Shown in pieces: positions 5,815-46,175 of a stretch of 64,000 nt of DNA; within the stretch, counting starts at the first letter, position 1, and each line of letters begins with the position of its first letter. The stretch covers positions 6,714,001-6,778,000 of the forward strand of contig NZ_JAPNKC010000001.1 of NCBI RefSeq assembly GCF_026626705.1. The letters run 5' to 3'. The notes beneath the pieces were generated by a model that saw only the letters and a program-made list of their open reading frames with translations, did no database searches and was not told where the DNA came from. The translations under genes were made by a program, and so were the position numbers. Source of the stretch: Pyxidicoccus sp. MSG2. Lineage in GTDB: Bacteria; Myxococcota; Myxococcia; Myxococcales; Myxococcaceae.

Positions 5815-7659
5815 GTGTCGGCCCCGCGTGATGCATCCACCCGCGCCAATCTGCTGGGCAGATACGAGCTCGTCACCGAGCTGGGTCAAGGCGGGATGGC
5901 AAAGGTGTACCGGGCGCGTGCCGCGGGCCCGGGAGGCTTCGAGAAGACGCTGGTGGTGAAGTGCATCCTGCCGCACCTGGCGCAGGACCCCCAGTTCGTC
6001 GAGATGTTCCTGGCCGAGGCCCGGCTGGCGGCGCGGCTCAACCACCCCAACCTCGTGCAGATTTTCGACTTCGGCGAGGCGGCGGGCGCGTACTTCCTGG
6101 CGATGGAGTACATCGACGGGCCGACGCTGCGTGCGCTGCTGCGGCGGCTGGCCGCGCAGGGCCAGGCGATACCCTATCCCCTTTGTGCGCGCATCGCGTC
6201 AGCGGTGTGCGAGGGGCTCACGTTCGCGCACGAGTTCTGTGATCCGGACACGGGCGAGGCGCTGCGGATGATTCACCGCGACGTCAGCCCCGACAACATC
6301 CTGCTGTCACGCAGCGGCAACGTGAAGCTGGTGGACTTCGGCATCGCCAAGGCCACCAGCCAGGCGCCGCAGACGCAGGTGGGCACGCTCAAGGGCAAGG
6401 TGCCGTACATGGCGCCCGAGCAGCTGCGCAACGAGCCGCTGGACCCACGCACGGACGTGTACTCGCTGGGGGTGGTGCTCTACGAGATGGTGGCGGGTGC
6501 CAAGCCCTTCGAGGCCAGCAACGAAGCGGCGCTGATGCGTGCCATCCTCTTCGAGCCCTTCATTCCCGTGGACGCGCGGCGAGAAGGCGCACCCGAGGCC
6601 CTGCTGCGCATCATCCAGCGCGCCCTCGCGAAGGACCGCGAGACGCGGTACGCGGACTGCCGGCAGATGCAGGCGGACCTGGACCGGTACCTGCTGAGCT
6701 GCGGGCACCCGGTGGGCGCGCAGCACATGGCCCAGCTCATCAGCCGCGCGGGCGTGCCCGTCGGTGGGAGCCCCGTCGTGGGCACCCCTGTCTCCGGCGG
6801 GGTCAGCGTGCCCTGGGATGCGCCGCCGGGCTCCGGCCCTCCGCGGCCCGCCACCGGCCCGTCCATGCGCGCTCCGACGGAGGTCACCCCGCCGCAGCCC
6901 ACCGGCCCCACCCGCCCCCTGTTCCTGACGCGAGGCCGGGGCGTGCTCCTGCTCGCCGTGGGCGTCGGCGCGCTGCTGGCGGGCGCCGTCGCCGTGGTCC
7001 TGCGCCCCAGCGGTGGGGGTGGCCCGCCCTCCGCCCCCGTGGCCGCCAACACGCCGCCCTCCACGGGCGTCCCCGCCGCGCCCGGGGCCAACGGCGCGGT
7101 GCCCTCCACGACAGGGGTGCCGGGCACGGCCCCCGCGGGCACGAACGCGGAAGGAACCGTCGTTCCGCCCACCGGCGTCGCCACGGCCGTGCAGGGCGCC
7201 ACCGTGGAAGGAACCGTCGTTCCGCCCGCCGGGGCCACGGCGCAGGCCCCCGCCGAGCCGGCGGAGGTGGAACTGCAGGTGACGGTGACGCCGCGCAAGG
7301 CCCAGCTTCGCCTGGACGACCAGCCGCTGGAGGGCAACCCCTTCTCGGACACCTTCCCCCGGGATGGCCGCGTGCGCACGCTGCGCGTCTCCGCCTCCGG
7401 CTACACGACGGTGGTGAAGGAGGTGCGCCTCGACCGCGACCTGGCGCTCGACATCACCCTCTCCCGGCGCGGCCAGGAGTCGCGCCGTCCCGCCGTCGTG
7501 GAGAGCCCACCGCGCGAGCCGGCCCAGGTGCAGCCCCAGTCGCCGGACTTCGCCGAGCTGCCCGCGAAGCCGGCCCGGCGCAAGCCGCCCCGGCGCACCC
7601 TCGACCCGGACGACCCCTGGGCCGAGCAGGGCGCTACCCCTTCCTCGGAAACCCCATGA
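5815..7659 (+). CDS. Transmembrane Ser/Thr protein kinase with C-terminal PEGA domain
   Basis: A 614-residue Hanks-type kinase. The catalytic domain spans about residues 15-300: Gly loop GQGGMAKVY near 23, VVK lysine, HRDVSPDN catalytic loop near 153, DFGIAK, and MAPEQ in the activation segment. A Pro/Gly/Thr-rich linker leads to one membrane helix (about 375-395), then a second low-complexity stretch with two EGTVVPP units. An extracytoplasmic PEGA-like domain (about 485-565) and a basic tail follow. The GTG start at 5815 was preferred to the longer reading from 5755 because GGAGAGG precedes it and the kinase fold begins right after. It is first in an operon and overlaps the next gene by 4 bp (ATGA), so the two are probably translationally coupled. 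It likely phosphorylates cytoplasmic partners in response to an envelope signal; no substrate can be inferred. Confidence 0.92.
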
Positions 7660-10363: not shown

Positions 10364-11254
10364 TCAGCCCCGGGCGCCGCGCGTGGCGGAGCGGGAGTCC
10401 TGCTCCGCGTGCTCCAGGTGTTCCACCAGGAGGGCGTTGACCTCCGTGGCCCGTGTCACCGTCATCGCGTGGGCGGTACCGCTCAGCTCGACGTAGCGCG
10501 CGCCGGGAATCCCCTGCGCGAGCTCGCGGCCGGAGGCGGGCGTGGCGATGCGGTCATGCTCCGCGCTCGCGACCAGCGTGGGGATGCCGGCCAGGTCGGA
10601 GAGGAACGGCCGTGCATCCGCGCGGGCCATGGTCTTCACCTGCTGCATCAGGATGGGCGGGGACTCCGCGAGGTCTCGGTCGAAGAGTGTGCCCAGCTTC
10701 TTCGCCATGGCGTCGGGGTCGACGGCCGCCAGCTCATCATGGGTGAGCACCATCTCCATGAAGGCGCGCTGACGCATGCGCCGGGTGCCGATGCGGGTCC
10801 GCAGGCCGACGCGCACCAGCCACGGTGTCAGCTTGGAGGGGGCCCTGCCATTCGCGAATGTGCAGAGGAGCGCGAGGCTCCGCACCCGTGTCTTCGCGCG
10901 CCGGGCCACGTACTGAGCGATGAGCCCGCCCATTGAGTGCCCGACGAGGTGCGCGCTCTGCCAGCCCTGGGCGTCCATCAGCGCGAGGACGTCCTCGGCC
11001 ATGAGCTCGAGGGAGAGCGGTTCGGCGGAAGGAACGCTCCTTCCATATGCGCGGTTGTCGAAGCACAGGCACTGGAAGCGTGACGTCAGTGCGTCCAACT
11101 GTGGCCTCCAGCCGTTCGCTCCGACGCCCGAGCCCTGGATGAGCACGACGGGAGCTCCCTGGCCCTCCACGAACCAGCTCAGGTTGCAGCCCCGGTGCGT
11201 CGTTGCGCGTCGTTCCACGAGCCCTCCAGCGGGAGATGGAAATGACGCTGACAT
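10364..11254 (-). CDS. Alpha/beta-fold hydrolase
   Basis: A 296-residue cytoplasmic hydrolase of the epoxide hydrolase / 3-oxoadipate enol-lactonase type. Seen: oxyanion region VVLIQGSGVGANGW, nucleophile elbow GHSMGG with Ser about 95 residues in, acid in SAEHDRIATP, and base His in SGTAHAMTVT, so the triad looks complete. The ATG at 11254 is preferred; the same frame can also open at a TTG at 11269. Natural substrate not predictable. A fragment of this gene's 5' end was copied along with the neighbouring Uma2 gene (see 12028-12130). The site GGAAGGA-ACGC-TCCTTCC lies inside the gene at 11025-11042. Confidence 0.85.
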   Translation of the reverse strand: MSASFPSPAGGLVERRATTHRGCNLSWFVEGQGAPVVLIQGSGVGANGWRPQLDALTSRFQCLCFDNRAYGRSVPSAEPLSLELMAEDVLALMDAQGWQSAHLVGHSMGGLIAQYVARRAKTRVRSLALLCTFANGRAPSKLTPWLVRVGLRTRIGTRRMRQRAFMEMVLTHDELAAVDPDAMAKKLGTLFDRDLAESPPILMQQVKTMARADARPFLSDLAGIPTLVASAEHDRIATPASGRELAQGIPGARYVELSGTAHAMTVTRATEVNALLVEHLEHAEQDSRSATRGARG

Positions 11255-12026
11255 GGCCCGAACGAGCAAGGCGAACCCGTGGCAACGGGCACGTCATGGC
11301 AGCCAGTAGGCGACGTGAGAAGGAGGACGGGCCGGAAGTGATGTCAGACCCCTGGGGTAGGAAGTAGTGGACACGCAGTAGAGGGTGGGGTTCCACTCCA
11401 GGGAGGCAGGGTCGATGATGGAAGGGTGGGGAGTTGGCGGCCTGGGGAGTTCTGAGATGAGCAAGGAGACGAAGCGCCCGGCGACGTATGCCGACCTGGA
11501 GGCGCTGCCCGAGCACATGGTCGGGCAGATAATCGACGGCGAGCTCATCGCCATGCCGCGGCCCATGAGCCCGCACGTCATGGCGCACTCCGTGCTGCTC
11601 ATGGACCTGGGCAGCGCCTTCCAGCGTGGGCGGGGCGGGCCCGGTGGCTGGTGGATCATGGATGAGCCTGAGCTGCACTTTGGCCGGGATGTCCTGGTGC
11701 CGGATATCGCGGGCTGGCGTCGTGAGCGCATGCCCTTGATGCCCCGAGTCCCATATTTCACCCAGGCGCCGGACTGGGTCTGCGAGGTGCTCTCTCCTTC
11801 CACAGCGGGCTTGGACCGCAAGCGCAAGAGGGAAATCTACGCACGCGAGGGCATCTCGCATGTGTGGCTGGTGGACCCGGGCACGCGGACGCTGGAGGTG
11901 TTCCAGTTGCAAGGCGGACGGTGGGTGGAGCGGGGCACCTGGGCGGGTGATGCTCGCGTGCGTGCCGAGCCGTTCGAAGTGCTGGAACTGGAGCTCGGGG
12001 CCTTGTGGAAAATGGAAGCGCCCTGA
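11133..12026. repeat. Tandem duplication, unit 1 (hydrolase 5' end plus Uma2 gene)
   Basis: This segment contains the 5' part of the hydrolase gene, the divergent spacer and the first Uma2 gene. It recurs directly next to itself at 12028-12938, offset about 895-897 bp. The match is closest from about 11300 through the first 90 bases of the Uma2 gene, including the shared non-coding leader before the ATG. Confidence 0.85.
11457..12026 (+). CDS. Uma2-family (DUF820) putative endonuclease, copy 1
   Basis: A 189-residue protein of the Uma2 family, which has a PD-(D/E)XK nuclease-like fold. Seen: GQIIDGELIAMPRP near residue 25, acidic strand VLVPDIAGW, the E-x-K-like core WVCEVLSPSTAGLDRKRKREIYAREGI, and the ending HVWLVDPGTRTLEVFQL. 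Start at MSKETKRP, because both copies align from this ATG with GGGGAG upstream. Uma2 proteins are abundant and often duplicated in myxobacteria, cyanobacteria and Deinococcus; their cellular role is not established. It is divergent from the hydrolase gene. Confidence 0.85.
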   Translation: MSKETKRPATYADLEALPEHMVGQIIDGELIAMPRPMSPHVMAHSVLLMDLGSAFQRGRGGPGGWWIMDEPELHFGRDVLVPDIAGWRRERMPLMPRVPYFTQAPDWVCEVLSPSTAGLDRKRKREIYAREGISHVWLVDPGTRTLEVFQLQGGRWVERGTWAGDARVRAEPFEVLELELGALWKMEAP

Positions 12027-12027
12027 G

Positions 12028-12130
12028 CCCCGGATGAGCATGACGGGAGTTCACTGGCCCGCGACGAACCAGCTCAGGTTGCGAGCCCGGTGCATCGTCG
12101 CGCGTCGTTCCACGAGCCCCTCCTTGGGGA
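12028..12130 (-). pseudogene. Duplicated 5' fragment of the alpha/beta hydrolase gene
   Basis: Read on the minus strand this encodes GLVERRATMHRARNLSWFVAGQ, a stop (TGA), then TPVMLIRG. It aligns with residues near the hydrolase N-terminus (GLVERRATTHRGCNLSWFVEGQ, GAPVVLIQG). It is a truncated copy with a nonsense codon, carried in by the tandem duplication that also made the second Uma2 gene. It has no continuation to the left, where the first Uma2 gene ends. Confidence 0.8.
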
Positions 12131-12353
12131 GATGGGGCGTGATGGCGACAAGGCTTCATCCAGCAACGCGACGCACCAGAAACAGACACGTCGTCGCAGC
12201 CAGTAGGCGACGTGAAGAGGAGGGTGGGCTGGAAGTGATGTCAGACCCCTGGGGTAGGAAGTAGTGGACACGCAGTAGAGGGTGGGGTTCCACTCCAGGG
12301 AGACAGGGTCGATGATGGAAGGGTGGGGAGTTGGCGGCCTGGGGAGTTCCGAG

Positions 12354-12938
12354 ATGAGCAAGGAGACGAAGCGCCCGGCGACGTATGCCGACCTGGAGGC
12401 TTTGCCCGAGAACGTGGTCGGGCAGATCATCGACGGCGAGCTCATCGTCATGCCGCGTCCGGCAGGTCAGCATGGGGCGGCGCACACAGCGCTGATTGGT
12501 GAGCTGTACACACCCTTCCAGCGAGGAAATGGCGGCCCCGGAGGGTGGTGGTTCATGACCGAGCCGGAGTTGCATTTTGGCGACGACGTCCTCGTTCCAG
12601 ACATCGCGGGTTGGCGCATCGACCGAATGCCGGAGGACCTGTCGGCCCCCTTTTTCACCCTTGCCCCAGCCTGGGTCTGCGAGGTGCTGTCTCCGTCCAC
12701 CGCGAAGCTGGACCGCCATCGCAAGAGTGAGATCTACGCGCGCGAAGGCGTAGGGCACGTGTGGCTGTTGGACCCAGTCTCTCGGACGCTGGAAGTGTTC
12801 CAGTTGAGGGACGCACAGTGGGTGCGGCGCGGAACCTGGTCAGGCGAGGTCAGTGTCCGGGCCGAGCCCTTCGAGGCGCTCGAACTGGAGCTGGCGAGAC
12901 TGTGGCCGCGAATGCCTCAGCCTCCTCGGCCTCCGTGA
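12354..12938 (+). CDS. Uma2-family (DUF820) putative endonuclease, copy 2
   Basis: A 194-residue paralogue of the gene at 11457. The first 30 codons are almost identical (MSKETKRPATYADLEALPE). The middle has diverged (RPAGQHGAAHTALIGELYTPFQ against RPMSPHVMAHSVLLMDLG), while the nuclease core CEVLSPSTAKLDRHRKSEIYAREGVGHVWLLDP is kept. The conserved Asp, Glu and Lys positions remain, so both copies look functional. It ends one base before the convergent DMT transporter gene. Divergence concentrated in the middle could reflect relaxed or diversifying selection after duplication; that is inference. Confidence 0.85.
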   Translation: MSKETKRPATYADLEALPENVVGQIIDGELIVMPRPAGQHGAAHTALIGELYTPFQRGNGGPGGWWFMTEPELHFGDDVLVPDIAGWRIDRMPEDLSAPFFTLAPAWVCEVLSPSTAKLDRHRKSEIYAREGVGHVWLLDPVSRTLEVFQLRDAQWVRRGTWSGEVSVRAEPFEALELELARLWPRMPQPPRPP

Positions 12939-12939
12939 C

Positions 12940-13806
12940 TCACGCCCTCGCCACGGGCGCACGGGGCGCCGCCTTCGCGGAGAGCGCCAGCAGCACGCCC
13001 ACCAGCAGCGCTGCTCCCGCCACCACCAGGCGCGGTGTCACTGTCTCACCGAGCAGCAACACGCCACCCACCGCCGCCAGCACCGGCACACAGAGCTGCA
13101 CGATGGCGGCCCGTGTCGCCGTCAGGTGTGGCAGCGCCGCGTACCACAGGCTGTAGCCCACGCCCGACGCCAGCGCTCCCGAGGCCACCGCCAGTGCGAC
13201 GCCGTGCCCCGTCGCATGTGGCGTCCCCTGCACCAGCAGCCCCACGCCCGACAGGGCCACCGTCAGGGGCACGGAGCGCAGGAAGTTGTCCGCCGTCGCG
13301 GCCAGCGGATTGCGGTTGCCCCGCCCTCGCAGCGAGTACACGCCCCACGCCATCCCCGCGCCCGCCATCAGCGCCGCGCCCACCGGGTCCGGCGCGGACA
13401 CTCCGGGCGCCGTCAGCCCCACCAGCCCGCCCAGCGCCAGCACCAACCCCGCCACCTCGCGCCCCTTCGGACGCTCACCGCGCGCCAGCCCCGTGCCCAG
13501 CATCGTCGCCTGCACACAGCCGAACAGCAGCAGCGCCCCCACGCCCGCCGGAATGCGCACGTACGCCAGCGAGAAGCCCGCCGCGTACACGAAGAGCGCC
13601 AGCGCCGAGGGCCACGAGCCGCCCGTGTGCCGCCCACCCCTCGCCCACAGCAGCACCGCCAGCACCACCGCGCCGGACACCAGCCGCACCCCGGTGAAGG
13701 ACGCCGCGTCGATGAGCCGGCCGCCTCCCGCCAGCGCCGCGCGGCACAGCAGCGAGTTGGCCGCGAAGCCCAGCAGCGCCAGCACCGTGAGCAGTCCCGT
13801 CCGCAT
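12940..13806 (-). CDS. EamA/DMT-family transporter
   Basis: A 288-residue polytopic inner-membrane protein with about ten hydrophobic helices in two EamA-like halves (for example LLTVLALLGFAANSLLCRAAL, then VALAVASGALASGVGYSLWYAALPHL in the second half, a recognisable EamA signature). It probably exports a metabolite or amino acid; the substrate cannot be inferred. The ATG at 13806 overlaps the stop of the upstream outer-membrane gene by one base (TGATG), so it is coupled to it; a GTG at 13809 is an alternative. It is last in a three-gene operon with the pterin dehydratase and barrel protein. Confidence 0.87.
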   Translation of the reverse strand: MRTGLLTVLALLGFAANSLLCRAALAGGGRLIDAASFTGVRLVSGAVVLAVLLWARGGRHTGGSWPSALALFVYAAGFSLAYVRIPAGVGALLLFGCVQATMLGTGLARGERPKGREVAGLVLALGGLVGLTAPGVSAPDPVGAALMAGAGMAWGVYSLRGRGNRNPLAATADNFLRSVPLTVALSGVGLLVQGTPHATGHGVALAVASGALASGVGYSLWYAALPHLTATRAAIVQLCVPVLAAVGGVLLLGETVTPRLVVAGAALLVGVLLALSAKAAPRAPVARA

Positions 13807-15068
13807 CACCGCCAGAATCCCACGGACAGGCCCACGTTGGTGTACCGGCGCGCCAGGTCGAAGGACGCGGTGAGCGCCCAGTCCTCCCAGTAGCGCAGGA
13901 CGAACACCTCGAAGCCGCCCGTGAAGTGCGGCCGCGCCGGCCTGCCGTCAAAGGGCGAGGGCTCCGCATAGACGCCCGCGCGCAGGCGAATCATGCCCGG
14001 CACCGTGTCGTGCTCCACGCCAATGCGGGGCGCGAACTCGGAGGCGTGGCCCACCGGCTGCTCCTCCCCCGTGGAGGCGAACGAGCGCAGCGGCACCGCG
14101 TTGTCCACGCCGGAGAAGAGGTCCACCTGCGCGCTGAGGAGCCACCGCCCCGCGGGCGCACCCTTCGGCTCCTCCTCCGGCACCGGCAGCGCGTCGCCCT
14201 CCACAATCAGTTGCCGCCGCGCCGCTGGAGACAGGCGGTTGTAGCGCTCGGAGCCCTCTCCGAAGCGCCAGCTCGCCCCGAGTGACAGCACCGCGGGCGC
14301 CACCACCGCGCCGAAGAGCGTGCGCCCCGCCAGCACCGGCGCCTGCCCGTCCTCCTCGCGCAGGTCCGCCACCACCTCCGGCCTCACCGTCACGCCCAGT
14401 CGCCACGCGCGCCCGTGGGGCCGGTACAGCATGTCCACCTCCACGCCCGTGTCGCCGTAGCGAATCTCGTCACCACCCGAGGAGAGGCGGAAGGACGCCT
14501 GCACCGCGAAGAGCCCCAGCGCGAGGATGAAGTCGTCCTGCCCGAAGGCCACCGCCCCCGCCAGCACCGACTGCGTCAGTGAAACGCGGATGCGCTCGCT
14601 GTCCCCGTTGCACGCGGCCGTGGCGCAGTAGGACACCGCGCTGTTGCGCAGCGCGAAGCCGATGCCGAAGCGCTTGTATTGCAGCAGCAGCCCGCCCAGC
14701 AGTTGCCGGCTGTCCTCGGACTCGTCCGGCCGCCCGTCGTTGTCCAAATCCCGCTTGCGCCCGCCCACGAAGGGCAGGTCCAGCCAGGTCAGCGTGACGC
14801 CCAGGTCCCAGTCCTTCTCCAGCGAGGCGCTCCGGTGCGCCAGCGCCGCCAGGTTGCTGGGGAAGCCCGCGGCGCCCTCGGCGATGCCCACGTACGCGCC
14901 GCCCAGCGCCACCACGCGCGCCGAGCCCAGCAGCGCGCCGGGGTTGAAGTACAGCCGCTCCGGGCGCGGCGCCTGGGGCTCTTCGTCCTGCGCCCACGCC
15001 GCCGGAGCCCCGCACAGCACCGCGGCGCAGAGCAGGACCCACCCATACGTGCGTGCCCCGGTGCTCAC
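13806..15068 (-). CDS. Outer-membrane beta-barrel protein (UPF0164/PorV-like)
   Basis: A 420-residue exported protein with signal peptide 1-28 (AWA-Q). The N-terminal pattern LYFNPGALLGSARVVALGGAYVGIAEGAAGFPSNLAAL resembles the 'ALGGAYVA..D...NPAGLA' start of FadL/UPF0164/PorV-type barrels. The remainder alternates amphipathic strands and ends in a strand with a terminal aromatic (SVGFWR). The GTG at 15068 overlaps the stop of the pterin dehydratase gene (GTGA), which defines the start; the long N-terminal extension readable in this frame is the neighbour's sequence out of frame. Likely an outer-membrane channel or export accessory. Why it sits between a pterin enzyme and a DMT transporter is unclear. 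Confidence 0.75.
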   Translation of the reverse strand: MSTGARTYGWVLLCAAVLCGAPAAWAQDEEPQAPRPERLYFNPGALLGSARVVALGGAYVGIAEGAAGFPSNLAALAHRSASLEKDWDLGVTLTWLDLPFVGGRKRDLDNDGRPDESEDSRQLLGGLLLQYKRFGIGFALRNSAVSYCATAACNGDSERIRVSLTQSVLAGAVAFGQDDFILALGLFAVQASFRLSSGGDEIRYGDTGVEVDMLYRPHGRAWRLGVTVRPEVVADLREEDGQAPVLAGRTLFGAVVAPAVLSLGASWRFGEGSERYNRLSPAARRQLIVEGDALPVPEEEPKGAPAGRWLLSAQVDLFSGVDNAVPLRSFASTGEEQPVGHASEFAPRIGVEHDTVPGMIRLRAGVYAEPSPFDGRPARPHFTGGFEVFVLRYWEDWALTASFDLARRYTNVGLSVGFWR

Positions 15069-44384: not shown

Positions 44385-46175
44385 TCAGTCACAGCGATGG
44401 CAGAGGGTGCGTCGTCCCCCCGCCATCCATGGGGCGGCATATTCCCTACACACCCGGTCGGGTCGCTCCTGGAGCTGCCGGACGCGGGCCTCCAGACGGG
44501 GGACGCCGTCCGCGCCGAGGCGCCGGTAGGCCTCCAGGTCCGTCTCGGCGGCTTCCCAGAAGACGCAGGTGTCCGGCCCCTCCCGCACCGCGCCGTTCTC
44601 GAACACGGGCCAGTGCCCGTTCCGGGCCTGCCAGTCGTCCGGCACCCAGCCCAGTTCCACGTTGGCGAAGTTCACCTGGGGCCAGGACGGGCTCAGCAAT
44701 CCGCCGAAGCGCTTGCCGGTGTCGCGCAGCACCTCGCGGACGATGGCGGTGGCACCCCGGTCCTCCAGGGGCTCCAGGAACTGGAAGGGCGGCTGGCCCC
44801 GCACGCGCTCCTCGTAGCTCGCGTCGTACACCCGGAAGGCCCGGCCCCACCCGCGCGTCACCTCCACCAGCATGACGGCGACCAGCACGGCGAGCGCCAC
44901 GCTCCAGGCCCTCGCGCGAGGGGCCCGGGCCGGGAGCAGCAGGGCCCCGACGCGGCTGCTGGTGACGAGCATGAGCGCGCTCAGCAGCAACAGCACGGCG
45001 TGGAGCCCGTACTTGAGGAAGTAGTAGTCGATGGGCAGCCGCGCCGACAGGTACGCCCCCTGGATGGCCGCATTGACGCCGGCGAAGAGCAGGGCGAAGT
45101 CGAGCAGCCGCCGCTCCACGGCCTCTTCCCCGCGCGGGGGCAGGAAGCGCACGACGAGCAGCCCCACCACCGTCCAGCACTGCACCCGCAGCGCGCGCTC
45201 GTACCCGTGGGGGATGAAGCCGCCGCTGATGTGCGCCAGGGGCAGCAGCCGCCAGTACGCGTACGCGGCCGCGCCCAGGAACGCGAGCCCCACGGGCCAG
45301 ACTCCCAGGCGGAGCTTCGACGGAAGCCCGCGTCCCTCCAGCAGCAGGAGCACGCCGCAGGTGAAGAGGAAGTCCCCGAGGTTCAGCCCGTACGTGTACC
45401 GGTAGAACACGGTGAACAGCACGAGCGCGGCGCACCGCGCCCACGCCGCCCGGGGCAGCCCGTACGCGAGCCACGCCAGCACCAGCGGCACCAGCCCGAA
45501 GAGGTGCGCGTAGAAGCCCTCGGCCTGGTGGTAGTGCAACAGCCGCAGGAGCAGCAGGGGCCAGGCGACGGCGGTGGCCGCCAGCAGCGCCACCTGCGCC
45601 GCCACCGCCGCGCGGGCGGTGCCCCACCGCCGCACGGTGACGACCTCCAGGCCCGAGACGAGCGCCAGCGCCAGCACGGCGGGCACGAGGTAGAAGCCGG
45701 CGCGGAAGCTGGTGAAGGCATCCAGCCCGAAGAGCTGCTCCAGCCCATACGTCACCGTATGGAAGACGGTGAAGCCCTGGTAGGTGCCGGGCGCGTGCGT
45801 GACGAAGTCGGCCCGCAGCGCGGCGTGGTTGCCGGCGTCGCCGCCTCCGGTGCTGACCAGCCCTCCCATGACGGGGATGCCCAGCAGGCGCCACGTCAGC
45901 CCCAGCATGGCCGCGAGGCAGAGTCCCTGGACCCCGGCGAGCAGCGCGTGGTCGGGCCACGGGCGCAGGGCCGACAGCACCGTCCACGTGAGGAAGGCGG
46001 CCAGCAGGACACCGGCGGCGGCGCCCACCCACAGGGGCAGTCCCAGGGTCGCCCGGAGCACGCTCGCCAGGACGAAGGGCAGGAGCCACGAGAGCAGCAG
46101 GAAGCCGAGCGCGCCGAGCCCGCGAGGGCGCGCCGCGAGGGATGGAGAGGGCTGTGGGTCGTGGGTGTCCGGCAC
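44385..46175 (-). CDS. Polytopic membrane protein, glycosyltransferase-like topology
   Basis: About 596 residues with some twelve hydrophobic helices between residues 20 and 450, then a soluble C-terminal domain (about 460-596; QFLEPLEDRGATAIVREVL, PQVNFANVELGWVPDDW). The first loop after helix 3 contains GGDAGNHAALRADFV, with an acidic pair (D, then D/H) in the position typical of GT-C-type glycosyltransferases and related lipid-linked sugar transferases. No firm family match could be made by eye. GTG at 46175 chosen, with GGAGGG upstream; the frame opens to 46220. Divergent from the secreted protein at 46292. Confidence 0.7.
   Translation of the reverse strand: MPDTHDPQPSPSLAARPRGLGALGFLLLSWLLPFVLASVLRATLGLPLWVGAAAGVLLAAFLTWTVLSALRPWPDHALLAGVQGLCLAAMLGLTWRLLGIPVMGGLVSTGGGDAGNHAALRADFVTHAPGTYQGFTVFHTVTYGLEQLFGLDAFTSFRAGFYLVPAVLALALVSGLEVVTVRRWGTARAAVAAQVALLAATAVAWPLLLLRLLHYHQAEGFYAHLFGLVPLVLAWLAYGLPRAAWARCAALVLFTVFYRYTYGLNLGDFLFTCGVLLLLEGRGLPSKLRLGVWPVGLAFLGAAAYAYWRLLPLAHISGGFIPHGYERALRVQCWTVVGLLVVRFLPPRGEEAVERRLLDFALLFAGVNAAIQGAYLSARLPIDYYFLKYGLHAVLLLLSALMLVTSSRVGALLLPARAPRARAWSVALAVLVAVMLVEVTRGWGRAFRVYDASYEERVRGQPPFQFLEPLEDRGATAIVREVLRDTGKRFGGLLSPSWPQVNFANVELGWVPDDWQARNGHWPVFENGAVREGPDTCVFWEAAETDLEAYRRLGADGVPRLEARVRQLQERPDRVCREYAAPWMAGGRRTLCHRCD

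Follow-up and report, generated by a model that had tools for sequence, protein, structure and literature searches.

A stretch of 64,000 nucleotides from the 13.3-Mb genome of Pyxidicoccus sp. MSG2 (G000:C1:6714001-6778000, hereafter the window; other G numbers designate relatives) contains an old tandem pair of paralogues, copies A and B, of the Uma2 family of predicted nucleases. From their sequence features and by analogy with mycobacteria, we propose that the two genes are probably damage inducible, each copy being transcribed from its own promoter of the PafBC type, activated by a PafB/PafC-like pair. The genes and their putative control elements are as follows.

11342 to 11363, plus strand: predicted PafBC-type promoter of copy A, with TGTCAGACC-N7-TA (11342-11359), a -10-like TAGGAA (11358-11363), and a predicted transcription start site (TSS) at ~11371
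11342 to 11564, plus strand: 5' island (promoter, leader, and first 50 codons), near-identical to that of copy B, with 1/73 and 9/150 letters differing
11415 to 12026, plus strand: Uma2 copy A, 203 aa when counted from the first of the two ATGs in ATGATG (PF05685 in Pfam, searched with the translation starting at the second, 11418)
12239 to 12260, plus strand: predicted PafBC-type promoter of copy B, identical in its letters to that of copy A, with a predicted TSS at ~12268
12312 to 12938, plus strand: Uma2 copy B, 208 aa when counted from the first of the two ATGs in ATGATG (PF05685 in Pfam, searched with the translation starting at the second, 12315)

Copies A and B match the Uma2 domain (PF05685, COG4636, putative restriction endonuclease) nearly end to end, with 93.3 and 96.8 bits, respectively, for a curated cut-off of 27, and the family is multi-copy in this genome (16 matches). 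Inspection by eye revealed VPD, CEV, and LDRxxK in both proteins, which we take to be the PD-(D/E)XK residues. Copy A also matches the Uma2-like PDB chains 9Y1L, 6OKH, and 3OT2 (E values from 1.4e-16 to 9.8e-8), but these were deposited as putative or uncharacterized and are thus silent on function. The GTG start of a longer Uma2 open reading frame was replaced by ATGATG at 11415 (A) and 12312 (B), because a script found an ATG 64 to 75 nt past the start of the promoter-like motif in 38/40 related modules and because length changes between this ATG and the conserved ETKRPATY/PKRPATY are mostly multiples of three (by eye).

Homology between copies at different genomic sites has a sharp left edge at TGTCAGACC, 5' of which the DNA differs from site to site (by eye). 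Copies A and B both carry TGTCAGAC-N8-TA, in which a TGTCRG core is separated from TA by 8 nt. The promoter consensus of mycobacterial PafBC (RecA-NDp, for RecA-independent DNA damage) is tTGTCRgtg-8nt-TAnnnT (PMC5656591), and PafB engages a -26 motif in mycobacteria (PMC11804915). The exact pattern occurs in the window only at the two Uma2 genes, with one further match, containing one mismatch, at 6109. In genome scans with GACC fixed, whose counts cover that form only, YGTCAGACCC-N6-TA was found 23 times in G000 versus 0 for the reversed control, and YGTCAGACC-N7-TA was found 166 times across 8 genomes versus 11 for the control. When the gap was left free from N1 to N14 (4 genomes), 76 of the 103 matches had N7 and 6 had N6, 5 of the latter lying at Uma2 genes. 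The stricter TGTCAGACCC-N6-TA was present 321 times in 27 genomes of the genus, 94 times in 12 genomes of family f2, and 23 times in 24 genomes of family f3. Genomes of 3.5 to 6.1 Mb from the same order (G114 to G125 and G150, families f2 and f4) have at most 19 strict copies. The open-access literature, as far as its accessible text goes, yielded no description of this motif or of a PafBC-type promoter in myxobacteria.

Across 6 genomes (G071 and G077 left out), 14 of 54 Uma2 genes are preceded on their own strand by the strict motif at a distance below 400 nt, where 0.023 would be expected; paralogues in this comparison are not independent. Since many of the 14 are related by descent, the fair claim is that at least two Uma2 classes with different leaders carry the motif. 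YGTCRGACC-N7-TA is kept in 37/40 class-1 modules (L050 and L070, from another Uma2 class, left out), and class-2 genes have a different leader, with the motif 28 to 29 nt before the ATG.

The motif is also found in front of genes unrelated to Uma2. In G000, these encode RecX, an ATP-dependent ligase-domain protein, a RadC-like JAB protein, a DNA methylase, a 119-aa XRE protein, and, at L209, a TIGR03914/TIGR03915 (UdgX-type) protein; in G063, one encodes SbcD. The XRE protein was taken as the orthologue of DdiA from M. xanthus, described as the product of a "120-codon ddiA" (PMC12288472), because its gene has 120 codons including the stop and because the nearest of its four relatives in M. xanthus AM003 shows 97% identity to it. 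Named Myxococcus and Pyxidicoccus strains have DdiA-like proteins 95 to 100% identical to that of G000. Among the best 80 of 109 relatives, comprising 22 close orthologues and 58 more distant paralogues, the motif is located 119 to 123 nt before the ATG in 21/22 ddiA orthologues (only 42 nt of flank was available for the 22nd) and in 0/58 paralogues.

The start codon of ddiA is reported at +94 from the TSS (PMC12288472). In M. xanthus AM003, where the motif starts 122 nt before the ATG of ddiA, this published TSS places TGTCAGACC at -29 to -21 and the beginning of TA at -13. As for recX, 20/27 genomes of the genus contain YGTCRGAC-N8-TA in front of it. Mitomycin C raises the levels of the DdiA, RecX, and SbcD1 proteins; in a lexA mutant, their levels are unchanged (PMC12288472). 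LexA-type SOS control of the Uma2 pair was rejected, as a scan of the window allowing at most two mismatches did not find the SOS box CTRHAMRYBYGTTCAGS at the Uma2 genes, its sole match being at 44446. In class-2 Uma2 genes and recX of G000 (L085, L089, L092, and L093), the ATG is found 28 to 29 nt past the motif start; combined with the TSS geometry of ddiA, this spacing predicts mRNAs with no leader or almost none.

A candidate activator is encoded by an adjacent pair of WYL genes in G000 (~C1:3185.0-3186.9 kb, minus strand). The first protein of the pair, on which the Pfam and PDB runs were performed, contains WYL and WCX domains and, in the PDB, matches PafBC best (6SJ9, E value of 4.8e-22). 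Upstream of the pair is a LexA-box-like sequence, GATTACCTGCTTGTCTGTTCAG, similar to a box that was reported for pafBC of M. xanthus and that LexA bound weakly (PMC9705874). The M. xanthus homologues of PafB and PafC, MXAN_1359/1360, were "not investigated further" in PMC12288472.

Taking each step from the mycobacterial case, we suggest the following scheme. DNA damage would produce single-stranded DNA, which would be bound by the PafB/PafC-like WYL pair; encoded behind its LexA-box-like site, this pair would be raised further when LexA falls. The pair would then direct RNA polymerase to the motif promoters, and the Uma2 proteins would be produced alongside RecX, DdiA, SbcD, the ligase, and the UdgX-type protein for the processing of DNA that is damaged or foreign. 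Uma2 proteins may serve to trim DNA that has been damaged, to cut DNA that invades the cell, or to restrain growth. The accessible literature on Uma2 and "DNA damage" gave no evident sign of a link between Uma2 and a promoter of the damage type.

Several observations weigh against PafBC-type control. After TGTCRG, we found AC(C) where the mycobacterial promoters have tg; as copies A and B read TGTCAGACC and not tTGTCRgtg, we call their promoters PafBC-like and do not assign them to the mycobacterial consensus. The -10 element reads TAATCT or TAGTCT in most ddiA orthologues, and the TAGGAA of copies A and B departs from TAnnnT, the final T being present in 38% of 32 distinct non-Uma2 sites (43 sites reduced by likeness). 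The strict motif is absent from 40/54 of the Uma2 genes. In 9 genomes of two other families, mostly motif-rich ones, it lies within 700 nt of 0/14 Uma2 matches, one of which has only 16 nt of flank. Several motif sites of G000 have no convincing gene (L081 and L094, for example), recX in the other 7/27 genomes, including G063, is off by 1 to 2 letters (by eye), and the SbcD of G063 is only putatively SbcD1. Finally, the lexA mutant shows slightly raised transcript levels for ddiA and recX (PMC12288472), which fits, without proving, an action of LexA on pafBC.

Alternatively, the motif could be a real promoter that is read by another regulator or sigma factor, such as an extracytoplasmic function (ECF) sigma factor, in response to a signal other than DNA damage. 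We consider this unlikely. Some downstream genes are not repair genes (TetR-like proteins, recognized by eye, and von Willebrand factor A [VWA] proteins), and the binding of PafBC to the motif is deduced from sequence; however, the motif has the spacing and position of PafBC promoters, and mitomycin C induces ddiA, whose promoter fusion also responds when ddiA itself is mutated (PMC12288472).

We then compared copies A and B along their length, with synonymous (dS) and nonsynonymous (dN) divergence calculated by NG86. The gene bodies gave a dS of 1.07 and a dN of 0.25 (dN/dS of 0.23) versus a dS of 0.20 and a dN of 0.03 for the first 50 codons. Differing sites numbered 9/150 in these codons and 138/459 in the body (Fisher p 7e-11), and a single letter differs in the 73 nt from motif to start. 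The body of copy B is nearest to the same-locus gene of G054 (dS of 0.23) and that of copy A to the same-locus gene of G064 (dS of 0.51), each of these loci having one Uma2 match. Because each body is closer to a copy from another species than A is to B, the two bodies are older than the G054/G064 species split, and the "fresh" duplication described in the first-pass annotation has to be given up. Its statement that divergence is concentrated in one part of the proteins holds, the same contrast recurring in the tandem pairs of two relatives: identities for the first 50 codons and the body are 0.94 and 0.70 in G000, 0.97 and 0.72 in G073, and 0.95 and 0.74 in G057. Given the body dN/dS of 0.23, homogenization or recombination of the 5' end fits this contrast better than fast change in the middle.

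The mosaic structure of the G054 gene is in line with exchange: of its 176 informative sites, the first 47 include 37 that are A-like and the last 129 include 109 that are B-like, a contrast matched by 0/5000 permutations. In genomes with several copies (21 modules), the closest relative of a module belonged to the same genome in 12 cases when the first 50 codons were compared and in 5 when the body was compared. Altogether, the contrast at the 5' end points to its recombination or conversion, the data being compatible with gene conversion and with unequal exchange alike. The shared 5' end could act as a homology block for recombination, by which promoter and leader would stay alike and bodies would be diverse or swapped.

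Ordinary expansion of a gene family, with a near-identical 5' end that was merely inherited, changes slowly, and has no special promoter meaning, would account for the origin of A and B, which do stem from a duplication, and for the multi-copy state of Uma2. We regard it as improbable, since synonymous sites should diverge alike along one gene pair, which the dS values above contradict, and TGTCAGACC-N7-TA occurs at fixed spacing before nonhomologous genes, unrelated repair genes included. Even less probable is that TGTCAGACC represents the end of a mobile element carrying Uma2 genes. The sharp left edge and the presence of modules at many different sites are as expected for such an end, but the motif precedes unrelated genes with a fixed N7 gap to TA and, in G000, stands 28 to 29 nt from the ATG of recX and of class-2 Uma2, and we judged this explanation unlikely on that basis rather than from a systematic search for a right end, a transposase, or target-site duplications. 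That the leader is conserved as a structured regulatory RNA was rejected as highly improbable: the leader does have well-conserved letters, for example GTGGGGTTCCACT (by eye), but a 90-nt segment beginning at the predicted TSS of copy A folds less well than most of its shuffled versions (z of +1.41, with 187/200 shuffles folding at least as well), and part of the leader reads as codons.

We next consider the surroundings of the pair, which comprise three further features.

10364 to 11269, minus strand: alpha/beta-hydrolase gene, the intact neighbor (open reading frame; Pfam Abhydrolase_1, 102.6 bits), with ATG at 11254 as an alternative start
12022 to 12119, minus strand: fragment of the hydrolase 5' end within the repeat unit, 88% identical to 11127-11224, with a stop after VAGQ in its translation
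12940 to 13809, minus strand: downstream flanking gene (open reading frame), also matched beside the Uma2 locus in G054, G064, G073, and G079, and presumably encoding an EamA-type membrane transporter

The repeat unit of 895 to 897 bp combines the 5' end of the hydrolase gene with the Uma2 gene and an intervening stretch that is more variable. Three ungapped direct repeats were found at this spacing (11127-11224/12022-12119, 88%; 11243-11542/12140-12439, 89%; 11750-12008/12647-12905, 76%), in agreement with the head-to-tail repeat of ~895 bp proposed from the first inspection. Likewise, the captured and broken piece of the hydrolase gene seen at that stage was recovered in the minus-strand translation of 12022-12119, which reads GLVERRATMHRARNLSWFVAGQ and then a stop. 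Identity between A and B per 100 alignment columns is 65 at 11190-11287, 92 to 98 at 11288-11487, and 68 to 81 at 11488-11987. Only the ~220 bp of the 5' island (promoter, leader, and 50 codons) are near-identical. Relatives have single copies and also tandem pairs with other junctions: there is no hydrolase match between the copies of G057, and a 54-bp match to the downstream gene lies between those of G073. The refuting condition set in the first-pass annotation, namely relatives with two independently placed Uma2 genes that lack the shared leader and hydrolase fragment, gives a mixed outcome, as the leader is shared and the fragment is not. Uma2 copies seem to have been gained and lost repeatedly at this locus, judging from these sequences, with the 5' block as the recombination site.

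Additional genes were noted behind the motif. Genes judged TetR-like by eye, with long and unusual C-terminal parts, occur there repeatedly in G063 (L183, L194, and L197) and in G000 (L077 and L200), and these loci have a common stretch downstream of the motif. Related proteins of 226 to 227 aa are encoded at L075, L087, L189, and L213, in three genomes, and represent a candidate new damage-response gene; the L075 protein has no Pfam or NCBIfam match. On the 147-kb contig G000:C2, motif sites at 138619 and 139430 (L083 and L084) precede a DUF932 gene and a RadC-like gene, as might be seen in a plasmid or prophage. At L195 (G063:C1:6936900-6939100), the motif precedes a gene resembling cGAS/DncV-like nucleotidyltransferases (CD-NTases), with a match of 64.8 bits (cut-off of 150) to the cyclic GMP-AMP (cGAMP) synthase of cyclic oligonucleotide-based antiphage signaling systems (CBASS). 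Antiphage defense may share the promoter, and this gene would fit a role in defense as well as one in repair.

The regulators that drive RecX, DinB, and ImuB without LexA and DdiA are left open in the accessible sections of a 2025 M. xanthus study (PMC12288472). On paper, a specific and testable promoter motif, together with its listed target genes, gives a partial answer, for recX and ddiA. The motif also places Uma2, a common family lacking a function, in a physiological setting and, if the proposal is true, ties it to the damage response. In addition, the locus is a case of a promoter and first codons homogenized across paralogues whose bodies are old and diverse. More tentatively, and with somewhat less than even confidence, we speculate that a PafBC-type regulon triggered by single-stranded DNA could be a missing LexA-independent arm of the myxobacterial damage response, in which LexA would govern the activator pair and fast-diversifying Uma2 nucleases would be wired in through a recombining promoter-leader block, their bodies being swapped while damage control is kept.

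The expansion of Uma2 paralogues resembles that described in cyanobacteria and Thermus (PMC1274311). Our motif has in common with the mycobacterial PafBC promoter the TGTC(A/G)G core with an 8-nt gap to TA and a site at about -26 from the TSS, as measured on ddiA of M. xanthus AM003; repair genes downstream and a WYL gene pair in the genome are further features shared with the mycobacterial system. It differs in the letters after TGTCRG, in the weak last T of the -10 element, in belonging to another phylum, and in the presence of Uma2 genes in the set. Unlike here, no promoter motif is named for the LexA-independent DNA damage response of M. xanthus in the accessible sections of PMC12288472, but the two sets of genes correspond: that response includes DdiA, RecX, and SbcD1, and we found the motif at ddiA, recX, and an sbcD.

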